From Deltaproteobacteria bacterium (GTDB taxonomy: Bacteria; Desulfobacterota; GWC2-55-46; JADFVP01), in contig JAJCZH010000011.1 of assembly GCA_029262515.1 (NCBI GenBank), positions 1-55,164 of the forward strand: DNA of 55,164 nucleotides, in the 5' to 3' direction. The notes beneath the pieces are model-generated. The model did no database searches. It worked only from the letters and a program-made list of their open reading frames with translations, and was not told the DNA's origin. Position 1 is the first letter of the stretch. Every line of letters starts with the position of its first letter. A program made the position numbers and the translations under genes. Shown here one piece after another: positions 8,220-47,930 of the stretch.

Positions 8220-9335
8220 GTGAGTAAGGATTTTTACGAGATTTTGGGTGTGTCGCGCGATGCGAGCGATACTGAGATAAAGAAGGCATACAGGAAACTT
8301 GCGCAGCAGCACCATCCGGACAAGCACAGCGGCTGCAAAGATACCGAAGAGAACTTTAAGCTGATAAACGAGGCATACGACGCCTTGAAGGACCCGCAAA
8401 GGCGCGCGCAGTACGACCGCTTCGGCTCTGTCTCGGGGCCTGCGGGAGGCGGTTATCAGGACTCCGGTTACGGCGCCGATTTTCAGGACCTCTTCAGCGA
8501 GGTCTTTAGCGACTTTTTTGGCGGCGGCGGGGGGGGGGGAGGCCCGAGGCGTCCGGCTCCTGAGCGCGGCAGCGACCTCCATTACGAGCTTGAGGTAGAC
8601 TTTGAAGAGGCGGCCTTCGGAACAGAGAAGAAGATAAATGTAGAGCGTACCGTCAACTGCGATACATGCCGCGGCAGCGGCGCTCGTGCCGGCACTCAAC
8701 CCGTAACATGCAGCACCTGCGGAGGGCGCGGACAGGTCGCCTTTCAGCAAGGTTTTCTCTCTATTGCGCGTACCTGCAACGCCTGTAACGGCAGAGGCGT
8801 GGTCATCGAGGAGGCCTGTGCTGACTGCAGGGGGCACGGCAAGGTGCGGCGCACGAGGGAGATGGGGGTGAAAATTCCGGCCGGTGTTGATACTGGTTCG
8901 CGCCTGAGGCTGATGACCGAGGGGGACTTCGGTACCAGAGGCGGCCCTCCGGGTGATCTATATGTATCTATTTTTGTTAAAGAGCACCCGATCTTCTCGC
9001 GCGAGGAAAATGATGTGATCTGCGAGGTGCCGGTCAGCTTCTCGGCTGCCGCGCTCGGCACAGAGCTTGAGGTTCCGACCCTTGAGGGGCCGATCAAACT
9101 CAAGGTTCCGCCCGGCACGCAGTCAGGAAAGGTCTTCAGGCTCAAGCACAAGGGGATAGCCTCCGTCCGTTCGGGCAGAAGAGGGGACGAGCAGGTCGTT
9201 ATCAGGGTAGAGACGCCTACGAAACTAAATCGCGACCAGAGGGCGTTGCTTGAGCAGTTTGCCGAGATAAGCGGAGATGAGAGCACGCCTCTGCACAGGA
9301 ACTTCTTCTCCAAGGTAAAGGAAATCTTTGAATGA
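8220..9335 (+). CDS. dnaJ: Chaperone DnaJ (Hsp40, type A)
   Basis: A 371-residue type A J-protein. The J domain (1-70) has HPD at 32-34. The G/F linker (about 70-115) contains a run of glycines encoded partly by an 11-G tract. Four CxxCxGxG zinc-binding repeats follow (starting CDTCRGSG, CSTCGGRG, CNACNGRG, CADCRGHG), then the two C-terminal client-binding domains. It stimulates DnaK ATPase and delivers substrates. The start is GTG with GAGGAAGAG just upstream. A small hairpin (GAGGG/CCCCTC) lies in the 112-nt gap after grpE. The stop overlaps the next gene by 4 nt (ATGA), so the two are translationally coupled. Confidence 0.96.
   Translation: MSKDFYEILGVSRDASDTEIKKAYRKLAQQHHPDKHSGCKDTEENFKLINEAYDALKDPQRRAQYDRFGSVSGPAGGGYQDSGYGADFQDLFSEVFSDFFGGGGGGGGPRRPAPERGSDLHYELEVDFEEAAFGTEKKINVERTVNCDTCRGSGARAGTQPVTCSTCGGRGQVAFQQGFLSIARTCNACNGRGVVIEEACADCRGHGKVRRTREMGVKIPAGVDTGSRLRLMTEGDFGTRGGPPGDLYVSIFVKEHPIFSREENDVICEVPVSFSAAALGTELEVPTLEGPIKLKVPPGTQSGKVFRLKHKGIASVRSGRRGDEQVVIRVETPTKLNRDQRALLEQFAEISGDESTPLHRNFFSKVKEIFE
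8529..8539 (+). repeat. G11 homopolymer inside dnaJ
   Basis: Eleven consecutive G in the codons for the glycine-rich linker of DnaJ. The frame is intact in this copy. Loss or gain of one G would truncate the protein before the zinc fingers. Confidence 0.9.
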
Positions 9336-21043: not shown

Positions 21044-21374
21044 TTAATGTTTCCGGTCTACGGGATTAGTAGAGTACGGCGACTCATCTTTACACCGTTA
21101 CAGAATATATCGGCACGGTTGAACAAAAGATAAAGCCAAAATAGGCTCTTTTTATTCTATGAGAATGTCGGGCCGGTGTCAATCCGAGCCATTCTCTCTT
21201 TCCCCGGTCGATGCAGGTCACAGCGCGAATTAGGGGGGTGTGCCTGTTGACAACAGCCACGGTACAGGGCTACTATCAGAGTATCCACCAGACAATAAAT
21301 ATAGACTCTATCTGCACTCGAAAGCGGCCTAAATATTTTCTAAGGTTAAGCAAAACATTGTCCGATATGACGAT
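21044..21374. other. Divergent intergenic region, rsbW-like / mlaF
   Basis: The plus-strand promoter TTGACA (21247-21252), 18 nt, TACTAT (21271-21276) fits the mla operon and leaves a leader of about 90 nt. No operator palindrome is obvious. mlaF has no clear Shine-Dalgarno sequence. Confidence 0.45.
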
Positions 21375-22160
21375 ATGATCAGGGTAGAGAGTCTAAATAA
21401 TAAGTTCGGTCACATTACGACCGCCAATGATGTTTCGTGCCACTTCGAGGAAAAGAAGGTCACGGTGCTTCTCGGTGGAAGCGGTTCGGGAAAGAGCACG
21501 CTGCTTAAGCAGATGGTGGGGCTCGGGCGCCCGGACTCAGGCTCGATCATGTTCGACGGCAGGGATATTACTAAACTCGCCAGAAAGGAACTCTACGAGC
21601 TTCGCAAAAAGATGGGCATGCTCTTTCAGGGCTCCGCTCTTTTCAACTCATTGAACATTTATGAGAACATCGCATTTCCTCTAAGAGAGCATACCAACCT
21701 CTCGGACTCCGTAATAAAGACTATAATCAAGATAAAACTCGAGATGGTGGGGCTAAGAGGCGTTGAGAATATGATGCCGTCCCAGCTTTCGGGCGGCATG
21801 ACAAAAAGGGTGGGCCTTGCGCGCGCAATCGTGCTCGACCCCAAGGTGGTCTTCTACGACGAGCCGACCTCGGGGCTCGACCCTATCGCTTCGGGCGTCA
21901 TAGACAAGCTGATAGTCGATCTCAACAAGAAGCTCGGCGTTACCTCTATCGTCGTCTCTCACGATATCGATAGCGCTTTTAGAATTGCGGACAAGCTGAT
22001 TATACTCTTCTACGGCAACCTGATTGCAGAGGGAACGCCGGAGGAAATAAAGAACAGTCCCGACCCGAAGGTTCGCCAGTTCATAACAGGCTCTCCCGAC
22101 GGCCCGATTCCGTTTACGCTTACGGACAAGGATTTTATAGAAGATATTCTGATAGATTAA
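21375..22160 (+). CDS. mlaF: Phospholipid ABC transporter ATP-binding protein MlaF
   Basis: A 261-residue ABC ATPase. Walker A is GGSGSGKST (about 33-41), the signature LSGGMTKR, Walker B VVFYDEP and the switch His in VVSHDID. SGGMTKRVGLARAI plus the YDEPTSGLDPI stretch is characteristic of the MlaF/Ttg2A group. It powers the inner-membrane MlaFEDB complex, which moves phospholipids between membranes and keeps the outer-membrane surface free of misplaced lipids. First gene of F-E-D-STAS-A-C. Confidence 0.93.
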   Translation: MIRVESLNNKFGHITTANDVSCHFEEKKVTVLLGGSGSGKSTLLKQMVGLGRPDSGSIMFDGRDITKLARKELYELRKKMGMLFQGSALFNSLNIYENIAFPLREHTNLSDSVIKTIIKIKLEMVGLRGVENMMPSQLSGGMTKRVGLARAIVLDPKVVFYDEPTSGLDPIASGVIDKLIVDLNKKLGVTSIVVSHDIDSAFRIADKLIILFYGNLIAEGTPEEIKNSPDPKVRQFITGSPDGPIPFTLTDKDFIEDILID

Positions 22161-34796: not shown

Positions 34797-35142
34797 TTTT
34801 TTATAGTTGATTCATTTATATATGTCAAGCCTATTTGTTATTTTAATGCCCGGTGCATGCCTGTTGTTTGAGCCTGTATGGCGCGACGTTTGATGGTATG
34901 TGGCGCAGGCGCAGGCGGCTCTTCTCTTATTCTTACACCCATCCTTATAACCAACCTCTCGACCTTCTACACTAGAACCAACTTCTCGAACTCACTGCCT
35001 GAAAGACCGGACCGGTCACTCTCTATTCTTACTGCTTTAAGTCTTACTGCTTTAAGTCTTGCTCAATTGAGATTATTTTTTTCAAGTTCTTGATGCAGGT
35101 ACTGAATGGGGGTACGGGAATCGGAGGCTAAATAAGTGATAA
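34797..35142. other. Intergenic region between tetR and the iron permease promoter
   Basis: It contains a 15-bp perfect tandem duplication (CTTACTGCTTTAAGT, 35028-35057, with a partial third copy). No gene is recognised. Confidence 0.45.
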
Positions 35143-41104: not shown

Positions 41105-42808
41105 GTGGGAGACAAGAGAGAGCATAATAAAGACGCGCCCCCGGTTCACGAAGAGAAGAATCAGGGAGGTGATACCGGAAACCCTGTGGAGCTTGCAGGG
41201 AAAACGGGACAGTTGACCTTTAACCTTGATGATCAGGCACGCAGTCTGCTAGGTACTTGCTTCAACGAGAGCGAGATAGAGTATCGGCGTCTGGTCGAGA
41301 GCCTCAATGACGAATACTTCTTCTACTCACACGATACAGAGGGAGTATTCAAATATGTCAGCCCGTCCATAAAGAGCGTACTCGGTTACGACCAGCACGA
41401 ATTTCTTACCCATTACTCTGAATACCTTACGAGTAACAGTGTTAACAGCGATGTTGACCGGCATACCGAACTCAGTATCAAGGGTAGAGTTCAGCCTACC
41501 TACGAGTTGGAGATATACCATAAGGACGGCTCAACCCGTTGGCTCGAAGTGAAGGAGACCCCGGTCTTCGACGACCTAGGCAATGTCATTTCCGTAGAGG
41601 GGATTGCGCACGATATCTCCGGGCGCAAGAGAACCGAGCAAGATCAGGAGGTACTCAGGGCCCAGTTCCAGCAATCGCAGAAGATGGAAGCCATAGGCAT
41701 TCTGGCTGCCGGAGTCGCTCACGACTTCAATAACATCTTAACGACAATTGGACTTCATTCGGAGATAGCCATGAATGAGGTCGGCCCGGGGCATATTGCC
41801 TACAATAGCATGATGGAGACCTTTAAGGCGTCGAGAACCGCCTCTGAGCTCACCCGCCAGCTTCTGCTATTTAGCAGAAAAGAGGCTATGAGCTTTGAGA
41901 CAGGCGACTTGAATATTATCGTAGCCGGTCTGCTCAAGATGCTAGGCCGCCTGATAGGCGAGGATATTCAGATAAAGACCGACCTCGATGCAGCTCTTAA
42001 AACGACATTTTTCGATAAAGGCAGCATGGAACAGGTCCTTATGAACCTCTCGGTAAACGCAAGAGACGCTTTGGCGGAGGGAGGCAGCATAACGATAAAG
42101 ACAAGGAACGTGACGCTCGGCAGGAAAGAGTGCGAGGGCCGCATAGGGGCTCGTCCCGGCGAGTATATCTGCCTTTCGATCTGTGACTCCGGGGCCGGTA
42201 TGGATGACGAGACCAAAGCTCACATCTTTGAGCCCTTTTATACCACCAAGTTGGCGGGCAAGGGCACAGGGCTCGGCCTTTCGGTCGTTTACAGCATGGT
42301 GAAGCAGCATAACGGCTGGGTAGAGGTGCAGAGCGCACCCGGCAGGGGTACGGAGTTCAGTCTCTATTTTCCCGTCCAAAAGGAAGTTATTAAGAAGGTC
42401 TCTGTAGAGAGAGAGGCTGAGCAGCGTCTGATGGGCGACGGTGTCAGGGTACTATTCATAGAGGACGACCCCAATGTCCGGGACGGAGTTATGAAGATAT
42501 TGGTACGTAGCGGTTTTGAAGTGCTCGAGGCCGAGAACGTACAGAAAGCGTGCTCGATCTTCGACAGAGAGAAAGGAAGTATAGATCTCGTGCTCAGCGA
42601 TGTAATCCTTCCTGACGGCACCGGTTTAGAGCTTGTTGAAGAGTTTCTGCGCGTGAGCCCGGAGCTGAAGGTTCTTCTTTCGAGCGGTTATACGGACGAA
42701 AAATCGCAGTGGCCTATTATTCAGGAGCGTAAATACGACTTTATTCAGAAACCGTACAGCGTAAGCGAGTTGCTCGCTGCGGTTGAAAAGGCCCTTGAAA
42801 AAGAGTAG
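41105..42808 (+). CDS. Hybrid histidine kinase PAS-HisKA-HATPase-REC
   Basis: 567 residues, soluble. A PAS domain with a PAC-like tail lies at about 55-175, the H-box is AAGVAHDFNNI (about 200), the N-box LMNLSVNARDAL, G1 (DSGAGM) and G2 (GKGTGLGLSVV) are intact, and a C-terminal receiver (about 440-560) has IEDDPN, the acceptor Asp in VLSDVILPDGTG and Lys in IQKPY. The start is GTG at 41105. It is closely similar to the kinase at 43173, including a 29-nt identical stretch in the receiver, so the two arose by duplication. Confidence 0.92.
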   Translation: MGDKREHNKDAPPVHEEKNQGGDTGNPVELAGKTGQLTFNLDDQARSLLGTCFNESEIEYRRLVESLNDEYFFYSHDTEGVFKYVSPSIKSVLGYDQHEFLTHYSEYLTSNSVNSDVDRHTELSIKGRVQPTYELEIYHKDGSTRWLEVKETPVFDDLGNVISVEGIAHDISGRKRTEQDQEVLRAQFQQSQKMEAIGILAAGVAHDFNNILTTIGLHSEIAMNEVGPGHIAYNSMMETFKASRTASELTRQLLLFSRKEAMSFETGDLNIIVAGLLKMLGRLIGEDIQIKTDLDAALKTTFFDKGSMEQVLMNLSVNARDALAEGGSITIKTRNVTLGRKECEGRIGARPGEYICLSICDSGAGMDDETKAHIFEPFYTTKLAGKGTGLGLSVVYSMVKQHNGWVEVQSAPGRGTEFSLYFPVQKEVIKKVSVEREAEQRLMGDGVRVLFIEDDPNVRDGVMKILVRSGFEVLEAENVQKACSIFDREKGSIDLVLSDVILPDGTGLELVEEFLRVSPELKVLLSSGYTDEKSQWPIIQERKYDFIQKPYSVSELLAAVEKALEKE

Positions 42809-43172
42809 TCACTATTTCAATACTATAGCCGGTATATAATAAACTTCTTACACCCCGATAGTCTCTTCCAGAATAGAGTTCAACCTCATTACACAGTATT
42901 GCCCGCAGTGCAGGCTTTTTGCCATCATAACTGTTTAGCAATTGCGCCTCCAGCTGTCGGTAACCGACAATCCTCAAATCCTGAAGTCTTTATGGAGTTA
43001 CTCTGCTTTGGTCTCGATAATCCAAGCCTTAACCGGCGCCACTCTTTCTGAAATCAAAAGTTTTGAGCTTTAAACTTACCATGCGAGATGATAATATATA
43101 GATCAGTACGGTATGCGGACTTTCTTGTTCAGGGGTTCAAGTTACCTCAATTCTTCATTTAGGGAAGATGTG

Positions 43173-44459
43173 ATGGGTGATTCTTCCAAGACAAAAAAAG
43201 AGCTGATTCTTGAACTCGAGGCTTTACGCAAGTTGGTCGCTCCGTTACGCTCCTCCGGCACGTCCCGGGGTAGCGCCGAGCGGAAGCAGCACGGTCTTCA
43301 GCTACAGCAAGCGCGGAAGATGGATGCCATAGGCGTGCTCGCTGCGGGCGTGGCTCACGACTTCAATAATATTCTTACAACAATCGGGCTCAACTCAGAG
43401 GCTGCCATGGACGAGGTAGGCTCCGGGCACCCCGGTTATATGTGTATGGATGAGGTCTTAAAGGCATCGAGGGCCGCCTCCGAGCTGACCCGCCAACTTC
43501 TGCTCTTTAGCAGAAAAGAGACGCTACATTTCGTAGCCGACGATCTAAACAGGACGGTAGCCGACATGCTGGGGAAGCTTGCTTGCCTTACCGGTGAAGG
43601 TATTCAGATAGAGACCGAGCTCGATGCCGTGTTAAAACCGGTCTGTATTGACAGGGGCAGTATTGAGCAGGCCCTGGTGAACCTTTCGGTTAATGCCGGA
43701 GAGGTTATGAAGACAGGCGGCAGGCTAACGATAAAGACGAGTAACGTAAAGATCAAGGCAAAAGAGTGCAAGTCCCGTTTCGATGCCCGCCCAGGCGACT
43801 TTGTGCGCCTCTCGGTCTCTGATACAGGCGCGGGTATGGATTCTGAGGTTACGGCGCATATATTCGAGCCGTTCTTTACGAGCAGGGGCGCAGGCAAGGG
43901 CCCCGGACTCGCTCTTTCGGTTGTTTACGGCATAGCGAAACAGCATGACGGCTGGGTAGAGGTGGAGAGCGCTCCGGGCAAGGGCACGGAGTTCAGCCTT
44001 TATATCCCTGTGGAGAGAGAGGCGGCGGCTGCAAGGGAGATCGAGGCCCGGGAAGAGGAGCTGTTGAGAGTTGACGGACTCATGGCGCTCTTGATTGAGG
44101 ATGAACCGAATGTTCGTGCCGGCGTATCAAAGATACTTCAACGAAGAGGTTTTATAGTTCTTGAGGCAGACAGCGCTCAAGAGGCCCGTTCGCTTTTCGA
44201 CTCTCAGAAAAAAAATATTCATTTTGTGATCAGCGATGTAATGCTTCCTGACGGTACCGGTTTAGAGCTTGTTGAAGAGTTTCTAGGCGTTAGTCCGGAG
44301 CTAAAAATTCTTCTTTCGAGCGGTTATATGGACGAGAAATCGCAGAGGCCTCTAATTAAGGAGCACAAGTACAGGTTTATTCAGAAGCCGTACAGTGTCG
44401 GTGAACTGCTCGACGCCGTAAAAGAGAGCCTCAAAGAGCCCGCGAAACAGATTAGTTGA
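43173..44459 (+). CDS. Hybrid histidine kinase HisKA-HATPase-REC, paralogue without PAS
   Basis: About 428 residues from the ATG at 43173, with AGGGAAG upstream (an ATG at 43113 has no ribosome site). The H-box (AAGVAHDFNNI), N-box and receiver match the preceding kinase, but the PAS domain is missing and the G2 box reads GKGPGLALSVV instead of GKGTGLGLSVV, which may weaken ATP binding. The receiver keeps the Asp in VISDVMLPDGTG. Sensing must come from another protein, or the domain may act mainly as a phosphatase or scaffold. A terminator follows. Confidence 0.88.
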   Translation: MGDSSKTKKELILELEALRKLVAPLRSSGTSRGSAERKQHGLQLQQARKMDAIGVLAAGVAHDFNNILTTIGLNSEAAMDEVGSGHPGYMCMDEVLKASRAASELTRQLLLFSRKETLHFVADDLNRTVADMLGKLACLTGEGIQIETELDAVLKPVCIDRGSIEQALVNLSVNAGEVMKTGGRLTIKTSNVKIKAKECKSRFDARPGDFVRLSVSDTGAGMDSEVTAHIFEPFFTSRGAGKGPGLALSVVYGIAKQHDGWVEVESAPGKGTEFSLYIPVEREAAAAREIEAREEELLRVDGLMALLIEDEPNVRAGVSKILQRRGFIVLEADSAQEARSLFDSQKKNIHFVISDVMLPDGTGLELVEEFLGVSPELKILLSSGYMDEKSQRPLIKEHKYRFIQKPYSVGELLDAVKESLKEPAKQIS

Positions 44460-44775: not shown

Positions 44776-44852
44776 TCTGGGGGGGTAAATAGCCGGAAAT
44801 TTTGCTCTTGGGGTGGAGCAACAGACAGGGATGGGTCAACTGGGAGTCTTTT

Positions 44853-45906
44853 TTGAATCGTATTCGAAGTGTCGATATCTTCAGGCTGCTTGCCGTTGTA
44901 GCGATTATTTCAAGTTGTAGCGATTATTTCAATACATACGACTCCATTTTACCCTGACTCTCCGGGCGCTACGGAGACAGATCTCTACGTTTTTGTAATA
45001 GTTGACCAGTTAGCCAGGTCTGCCGTACCTTTTTTCTTTGTTATATCCGGTTATTTCTGGGGCGTTAAAGTCAGAGGTGGCAGTGGCCCGATACCTTCCG
45101 CTTTAAAGATGTCCAAGAGAATACTGATTATTTTCCTGGCGTGGTCTCTTTTCTACCTCCTGCCCTACAATATTTCCGCAATCTATTACTACGGGGCATC
45201 CGGCTCGTTCATGGTCGCTTACGCGAATATCACGCGCCTCATTCAGGATCCTCTCGCTCTTGTTATGCAGGGCACGAAAGTCCATTTGTGGTTTATGGTA
45301 GCGTTGCTCTTTGCCTGCTGTATAAGCGCAATCTTCATACACAAAAAATGGGTAAAGAGCCTGGTTGTACTCTCCGTACTGCTCTATACGGTAGGAGTTC
45401 TTGCAAAAGCGTATGCCGGAACCCCGCTCGGTTTGGAGATAGATTTTAATACTCGTAACGGACCGTTTTTCAGCACATTGCTCTTCGTAACTGGTTATCT
45501 ATTGTCGGGATTCAAAAGAGATACCAGGTGGCTGGCCTTCGGTTTGCTGCTCTTTGTTGCGGGGGCTGTGATCCATCTTTCCGAGATCTATGTAATCTGG
45601 AAAATATTCGGAACCACCCCGGTGCAAGATTTCGTCTTTGGTACTTATATAATGGGGGTTGGGGTGGCAGTGGCATCGTTGTCGGACCATCCTGTTCTAC
45701 AGAGCTCTGTGTTGAGTAAAGTCGGGCAGATGACTCTTGGAATATATGCTGTCCACTATCTCTATGTCGAGCTCTTTGTTGGAATAGGCAGAAGTATTAA
45801 ATCTCCAATTTGGGATATCTGCTACATACTATTAGTATTTTCTCTCTCAGCGGTATCGGTGCTCATTCTTTCCAGGAACAGGTTTGCGAGAAAGGGAGTT
45901 ATGTGA
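44853..45906 (+). pseudogene. Acyltransferase 3 family membrane protein, frameshifted by a 19-bp duplication
   Basis: The gene starts at TTG 44853 with GGGAG 6 nt upstream and opens RIRSVDIFRLLAVVAIIS. There a perfect 19-bp tandem duplication (44895-44932) shifts the frame and a stop follows. Removing one copy restores a continuous frame of about 344 residues, including the expected His (ISIHTTPF), the FFFVISGYFWG segment and the membrane helices to 45906. Such proteins transfer acyl groups to polysaccharides or lipids at the membrane. The downstream part (ATG 45109) is still open. In this genome copy the gene is off, and a slip could restore it. Confidence 0.85.
44895..44932 (+). repeat. Perfect 19-bp tandem duplication
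   Basis: GTTGTAGCGATTATTTCAA occurs twice in direct succession within the start of the acyltransferase gene. 19 is not a multiple of three. Confidence 0.98.
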
Positions 45907-46112: not shown

Positions 46113-46141
46113 TTGTACGCCTCCACTCGATATATTATACT
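46113..46141 (+). promoter_or_regulatory. Promoter giving a probably leaderless mRNA
   Basis: TTGTAC (46113-46118), 17-nt spacer, TATACT (46136-46141). The ATG at 46149 is 7 nt beyond the -10, at the expected transcript start. Confidence 0.5.
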
Positions 46142-46148
46142 TTTTCCT

Positions 46149-47930
46149 ATGAACCGTTTATGTAAATTTTTTCCTTTCTTGATTGTTGTCCTCGGTTTTT
46201 GGCTCTGGTCAGGAGCGCTTGAGGCCGGCTTTGCGCTTGATGATAGAATGTATATTCTTAATAATTTGGCCTTGCGCACACTTGACGGTACGCCACTATC
46301 GGACCCGCGCTTTATCGGCTTTCTCTCTTTCGCCTTAAATTATGTGGTCGGAGGCCTCAATGCTTTTGACTACCATCTCTTTAATCTACTTATTCACCTT
46401 GCGAATTCGCTCCTAATATTCTACATCTTGAAGGCCTCGTTCATAAGGCCGCAAAAGGTCGGACCCGCAGGTACAGAACCTCCGGATACAGACAAAATAA
46501 GCGTTCAGGCTACATTTGCATTTGTAACGGCGCTGATTTTTATGGCTCACCCCGTACAGGCGCAGGCTGTAACGTATTTAAGCCAGCGTTTTGCTTCACT
46601 TGCCGCACTCTTCTACCTTGCGGCCTTGCTCCTCTTCATAAAGGGGCGCCTCCTTGATATGTCGGAAGAGAGCAAAGGCGGAAAACTTTATTATCTCTTC
46701 TGCGTCGTTTCAACGCTTCTTGCAATGAAGACAAAGGAGATAGCCTTTACCCTGCCTTTTGCCCTCTTACTGTACGATATGATATTTTATAAGGGCATAC
46801 GCCGAAGCATGGGCGTATATATTCCCCTTGCGCTGACTCTTCTCATCATACCTGTCTCCCTTCTTTTAGATTCAAGTACTCTGGGTGGAACCGGTCTTGT
46901 GTCGGAGGTTACGCGAGTAAAACTGCTCGAAGCCAGCAGCATATCGAAAACAACGTACCTCTTTACCGAGTTTAGCGTCATTGCTTATTATATAAAGTTA
47001 CTATTTTATCCGTCAAACCTGCGTTTTTACTACGACTTTCCGGTAAGCGACACGCTTTTCAACCTGCGCACGATTTTAAGTCTGCTCTTTCTCCTTTTCG
47101 TACTCTTTACAGGCGCACTTACCCTCAAGAGATCACTCAAGCCGTCTACGGGTGAAGAGCCCAAGAGTATCAACACGTACGGCTTGATAGCCGCCTTTGG
47201 AATATTCTTTTTCTTTCTGGCGCTTTCAACCGAATCATCGGTCATACCGATCAAGGACGTCATATTCGAGCACAGGCTCTACCTCCCAAGTTTCGGCCTT
47301 ATCATTGCTTTTACATCCGGGCTCTGTTATCTCTCTTTAAAGGTATTCAGGGGCGGGCGGCAAAGAGTCGCCATTGCCGCAGCGTGCTTGCTCCTCTGTC
47401 TTGCGGTCGTGCCTCTTGGGGCCGTGCTTAAAGTGAGAAATAATATTTGGAAGGATCCGCTTGTCTTCATAAACGATAATATCGGGAAGAGCCCCAACCT
47501 GGCGCATCTTTATTATATACGAGGGTTGATATATATCGAACGAGGAATGCTCGAAGAGAGTATCGCCGACAATACGTTAGCGATAGAACTCGATCCAACG
47601 CACTTTCAGGCTTTTAATAACCGTGGTACCGCTTACCTGCGTTCGGGACTCAACAAGAAAGGTTTAAATGACCTTACGCATGCCCTTAAGATTAATCCCG
47701 AACACTTCGACTCCCTCACAAACCGCGCTTTAGCGCATGCAAGAATGAGCCATGCCGAGTTAGCGCTTTTAGACCTTAAGAGCGCCTATGAACTGGATTC
47801 CGATAAGACACGCCACATCTACTCCGAGTGGATATCTGCGGACCTCGCCCCGGCCTGCGACAAAGCCCGTACGAATAGACCCGGGGGGTGTTCTATAATT
47901 GAGCTGTTAGAGCAAGGAGAACAGGGGTAG
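46149..47930 (+). CDS. Membrane glycosyltransferase-like protein with TPR repeats
   Basis: About 593 residues from the ATG at 46149; a longer TTG start at 46113 falls on the -35 box. Eight to ten membrane helices occupy about 10-430, with the luminal acidic loop FALDDRMYILNN near the start and HPVQAQAVTYLSQR, characteristic of a GT-C-like family related to TMTC proteins. TPR repeats cover about 440-575 (YYIRGLIYIERGMLEESIADN and similar). It probably moves sugars from a lipid carrier to proteins or polymers. It follows a broken acyltransferase gene, so a surface polysaccharide role is plausible. Confidence 0.85.
   Translation: MNRLCKFFPFLIVVLGFWLWSGALEAGFALDDRMYILNNLALRTLDGTPLSDPRFIGFLSFALNYVVGGLNAFDYHLFNLLIHLANSLLIFYILKASFIRPQKVGPAGTEPPDTDKISVQATFAFVTALIFMAHPVQAQAVTYLSQRFASLAALFYLAALLLFIKGRLLDMSEESKGGKLYYLFCVVSTLLAMKTKEIAFTLPFALLLYDMIFYKGIRRSMGVYIPLALTLLIIPVSLLLDSSTLGGTGLVSEVTRVKLLEASSISKTTYLFTEFSVIAYYIKLLFYPSNLRFYYDFPVSDTLFNLRTILSLLFLLFVLFTGALTLKRSLKPSTGEEPKSINTYGLIAAFGIFFFFLALSTESSVIPIKDVIFEHRLYLPSFGLIIAFTSGLCYLSLKVFRGGRQRVAIAAACLLLCLAVVPLGAVLKVRNNIWKDPLVFINDNIGKSPNLAHLYYIRGLIYIERGMLEESIADNTLAIELDPTHFQAFNNRGTAYLRSGLNKKGLNDLTHALKINPEHFDSLTNRALAHARMSHAELALLDLKSAYELDSDKTRHIYSEWISADLAPACDKARTNRPGGCSIIELLEQGEQG

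Follow-up and report, generated by a model that had tools for sequence, protein, structure and literature searches.

The window analyzed in this study is a 55,164-nucleotide stretch of contig JAJCZH010000011.1 from a deltaproteobacterial genome (GCA_029262515.1), and it contains, on the forward strand, an acyltransferase gene whose reading frame is split into two open reading frames (ORFs). The N-terminal fragment (44853-44957) starts with TTG, preceded 6 nt upstream by the Shine-Dalgarno-like sequence GGGAG (44842-44846), and translates into the 34 codons LNRIRSVDIFRLLAVVAIISSCSDYFNTYDSILP before it is terminated by TGA at 44955-44957; this TTG aligns with the start positions of two relatives (L003 and L005). 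The C-terminal acyltransferase-3 part, recognized by translation, profile match and alignment, occupies the +1 frame (44902-45906; 334 codons and a TGA), in which the final upstream stop is TAG at 44899-44901 and no stop occurs across 44902-45903. The overlap between the two frames spans 56 nt (44902-44957). No ordinary start codon (ATG, GTG or TTG) appears in the +1 frame until ATG at 45109, past the first two membrane helices, and the sole downstream ORF initiated by one of these codons (45109-45906, 265 aa) would be missing TMH1-2 together with the catalytic motif.

The gene is flanked by hybrid histidine kinases upstream and a TPR membrane protein downstream. No clear glycan gene cluster is seen among the neighbors at the locus, and the neighborhood leaves the substrate unfixed. 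The two kinases (41105-42808 and 43113-44459) are adjacent and share 71% DNA identity over approximately 1.1 kb. The second is without the PAS part and has GPGLAL instead of GTGLGL in the G2 box of its ATP lid, suggesting that it may be degenerate.

The frame is broken by a 19-bp unit, GTTGTAGCGATTATTTCAA, that is present in two identical copies (44895-44913 and 44914-44932, forward strand), identified by Tandem Repeats Finder and a search of the window as a head-to-tail repeat at 44895-44932 with a period of 19, 2.0 copies and a 100% match. Because 19 equals 1 modulo 3, the duplication, which sits in codons 15-21 of the gene, causes a +1 frameshift, and translation in each frame showed that the repeat number alters the reading frame of the acyltransferase gene. 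The unit, copy number, coordinates and effect on the frame reported by the sequence-only reading were thus all confirmed, as was its claim that the duplication breaks the gene. A third copy of GTTGTAGCGATTATTTCAA was not found on either strand in the rest of the window. The duplication greatly exceeds what chance would produce; among 40 windows simulated by a Markov model with the same first-order composition, perfect tandem duplications with units above 10 bp were absent.

For comparison, 791 kb were sampled from the same genome, in which approximately 20 perfect duplications with units of at least 10 bp were identified. Those longer than 12 bp are mostly 15-bp units, lie at gene edges or in intergenic regions, or belong to a 23-bp array on another contig, and the 19-bp case is the longest among the perfect frame-shifting duplications within recognizable genes of this sample. 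Several other repeats were observed in this genome, including a perfect 8-bp duplication (CGATATGA CGATATGA) at 21363-21378 in the start-codon region of an ABC transporter ATPase gene (ATG at 21375), an intergenic repeat of 2.27 perfect copies of a 15-bp unit (TCTTACTGCTTTAAG) at 35027-35060 upstream of an FTR1-like permease gene, and an array of approximately seven copies of a 23-bp unit similar to CTGCAGCCCGAAAATTTGGCTCC (L031, positions 8955-9125, contig C9).

The duplication is known from one metagenome-like draft assembly of 38 contigs, the single assembly of the species that was covered, and the second copy might accordingly be an error of assembly, or the assembler may have chosen a minority variant; in either case the population would carry one copy. 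However, the 38 bp of the perfect repeat fall short of the usual length of reads and k-mers and its flanks are unique, and the scarcity of other short tandem duplications in the sampled genome indicates that the assembly does not generate them freely, which makes this explanation improbable. As to how the second copy arose, the duplication is bordered by ...TTGCC on the left and TACAT... on the right, with 0 extra matching bases at either end, and hence no microhomology is visible at its endpoints. Duplication driven by a hairpin was rejected, as the stability of the folded strand is not above that of shuffled sequences (z = 0.50).

Assignment of the gene to the acyltransferase-3 family, as proposed previously from the sequence, is borne out by the match of the +1 fragment to the Pfam profile Acyl_transf_3 (PF01757), which scores 81.5 bits, with a cut-off of 31, and covers profile positions 12-323 of 326. 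At the RXXR position of TMH3 the protein reads MSKR, where the subfamily mostly has M-x-K/R-K/R (RVKR in L008). Sequence comparison with solved structures gave no match, and a Foldseek search with a predicted model gave no useful one (best E 0.56, TM approximately 0.1-0.2); the model itself (mean pLDDT 75) is all-helical as expected and adds little. The family assignment suggests that the enzyme probably functions in decorating surface sugars.

Enzymes of this family carry an R/K-X10-H motif in TMH1 (PMC7448272), and the R-X10-H residues are placed along the proposed acyl-CoA pore (PMC9833829). The motif is essential in OafA, in which the R14A and H25A variants give a signal of less than 1% of the wild type (PMC7448272). 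Either R-X10-H or K-X10-H is present in the intact relatives described below. In the two-copy gene, the break falls inside the motif, with the Arg 5' of the duplication in the N-terminal fragment and the His 3' of it in the +1 fragment, and no single polypeptide carries both residues. The separation of Arg and His points to a broken gene of the acyltransferase-3 family rather than a working member. Immediately downstream of the TAG, the +1 frame encodes RLFQVVAIISIH, a second instance of R-X10-H with no start codon upstream; the RLFQ at this position imitates the Arg by chance.

An intact enzyme might in principle be produced by recoding, in which ribosomes shift by +1 within the overlap at 44902-44957, with CCC TGA C as one candidate site. 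In favor of this, the two frames share 56 nt, and the CCC TGA C in which the N-terminal frame terminates resembles a prfB-type site. However, with a shift at CCC TGA the His would remain in the frame that is not read, with SSCSDYFNTYDSILP in place of IHTTPFYP, no upstream prfB-like Shine-Dalgarno sequence is present, and the frames of the relatives run straight through without a shift. Recoding is therefore considered highly improbable.

A scan of 84,980 species genomes recovered seven relatives, six of which have a full-length ORF; their hosts are two proteobacterial metagenome-assembled genomes (MAGs; one of Rhodocyclales), Undibacterium, Sulfuricella, a Desulfocapsaceae MAG and a Sulfurovum MAG. 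The frame is intact in all six, and four of them start with TTG, as does the gene in the window. The N-terminal and +1 fragments were aligned to these intact relatives separately and without mending. The N-terminal fragment covers the region from the start up to and including TMH1; within TMH1 the +1 fragment continues the alignment and remains co-linear to the last residue, so that the overlap of the two aligned fragments falls exactly at TMH1. Pairwise, the +1 fragment is 42-50% identical to the relatives, a range that also holds between one relative and another, and those that share 45-50% with it include beta- and other proteobacteria and Sulfurovum. The sequence-only reading had regarded the downstream piece as otherwise whole, which agrees with its co-linear alignment to the C-terminus and the His present in ...VVAIISIHTTPF; its view that the event is fresh is likewise supported, in that the event looks recent because the remainder of the gene is preserved. 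The +1 fragment retains 69 of the 79 positions that are invariant in the other six proteins (87%), whereas those proteins retain 91-99%. Overall, the downstream part has been kept well, possibly with a little relaxation, and the lower retention could reflect an older relaxation instead of a very fresh event.

The gene was not found in the two other genomes of the genus or in the other member of the family, and it occurs in one of 47 other genomes of the order and one of 62 other genomes of the class, in a copy that is 34% identical. Its near-absence from the class, together with nearest relatives that belong to other groups, suggests that the gene was likely acquired horizontally. A viral source was rejected, as no match was found in IMG/VR. 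A second copy or paralogue within the genome was also rejected, since the downstream fragment matches only itself; other acyltransferase-3 genes of the genome comprise one intact full match on contig C24 that scores 115 bits and, on C2, a weak partial match. The downstream gene (46113-47930) encodes a membrane protein with C-terminal TPRs, and its counterpart in a sister genome of the same genus shares 76% DNA identity and has different flanks. The surroundings of the TPR gene are rearranged in the sister genome, which leaves no clean empty site.

The duplication had also been read as a potentially reversible on/off event, a claim that our results do not support. Such an event would make the two-copy gene the OFF state of a phase-variable locus toggling by gain and loss of the 19-bp unit. 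The duplication does break the frame within a gene likely to act on surface glycans, and there are precedents both in the pneumococcal capsule genes cap3A, cap8E/wchA and tts, whose tandem duplications are described as phase-variable events (Waite 2001, 2003, as cited in PMC4022640), and in Haemophilus oafA, a phase-variable acyltransferase gene (PMC6479036). However, only two copies and no repeat tract are present, and no relative or strain was found that holds the locus in another state. The six relatives have no 19-bp repeat at the corresponding site, and the same-genus genomes are without the gene; a conserved switch element was rejected on the former ground. Copy loss by slippage is physically possible, but reversibility in principle is a property of any two-copy tandem repeat and is not evidence of a switch. 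Strict definitions of phase variation, such as that in a recent review, require demonstrated spontaneous reversal at a high rate (PMC11868660), and in Xenorhabdus none of eight tested lrp mutant isolates, from a set that includes tandem duplications, reverted genetically (PMC6786866). An OFF state of a toggling locus is thus an unlikely explanation, and we give somewhat less credence still to a genuine reversible switch by which an uncultured environmental bacterium would toggle a glycan acyltransferase through a tract-free 19-bp duplication, perhaps under phage selection. If reads showed both states, switching by tract-free duplication, known in pneumococcus, would extend to an environmental lineage.

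Several known systems are comparable. In the pneumococcal capsule genes, a short duplication lies within a surface-polysaccharide ORF and function is lost, as is probable here; the titles cited in PMC4022640 describe phase variation in culture, whereas a single static sequence is available here. Spontaneous tandem duplications also inactivate lrp of Xenorhabdus (26-116 bp there), although lrp is a regulator gene in which reversion was tested across diverse mutants, none of which reverted genetically (PMC6786866). The oafA gene of Salmonella Typhimurium is likewise an acyltransferase-3 gene split in two when the copy number of a short tandem unit changes, with loss of a 7-nt unit abolishing acetylation (PMC9426603). 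Its repeated state is the intact one and unit loss breaks it, in contrast to the unit gain observed here, and it encodes a different, SGNH-fused enzyme (PMC9426603). In Haemophilus influenzae, the frame of oafA is also set by repeat number, but with approximately 9-11 GCAA units and proven population heterogeneity, as opposed to two 19-mers (PMC6479036). Inactivation of an acyltransferase-3 gene by a tandem unit change is therefore a known kind of event, found here with another unit and in another lineage.

Taken together, we consider the two-copy gene to be a recent loss-of-function allele, or young pseudogene, of a surface-glycan acyltransferase, with a probability of about 0.77. In the proposed scenario, a polymerase slippage or template-switch error would have duplicated 19 bp in an intact, stand-alone acyltransferase-3 gene that was probably acquired horizontally. 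Ribosomes initiating at TTG 44853 would halt after 34 codons, and the +1-frame remainder would offer no usable start upstream of the first two membrane helices. Since neither fragment carries both halves of the R-X10-H acyl-CoA site, no active enzyme would be made, and a surface or periplasmic glycan of the cell would presumably go without one of its acyl decorations. The acyltransferase knocked out in this way may have been a dispensable, acquired gene. The locus also serves as a warning for annotation, because a 265-aa "acyltransferase" without the active-site helix would be called here. With one perfect duplication in the catalytic helix and the remainder still readable, it illustrates clearly how a surface-modification gene of probable lateral origin may come to be lost.
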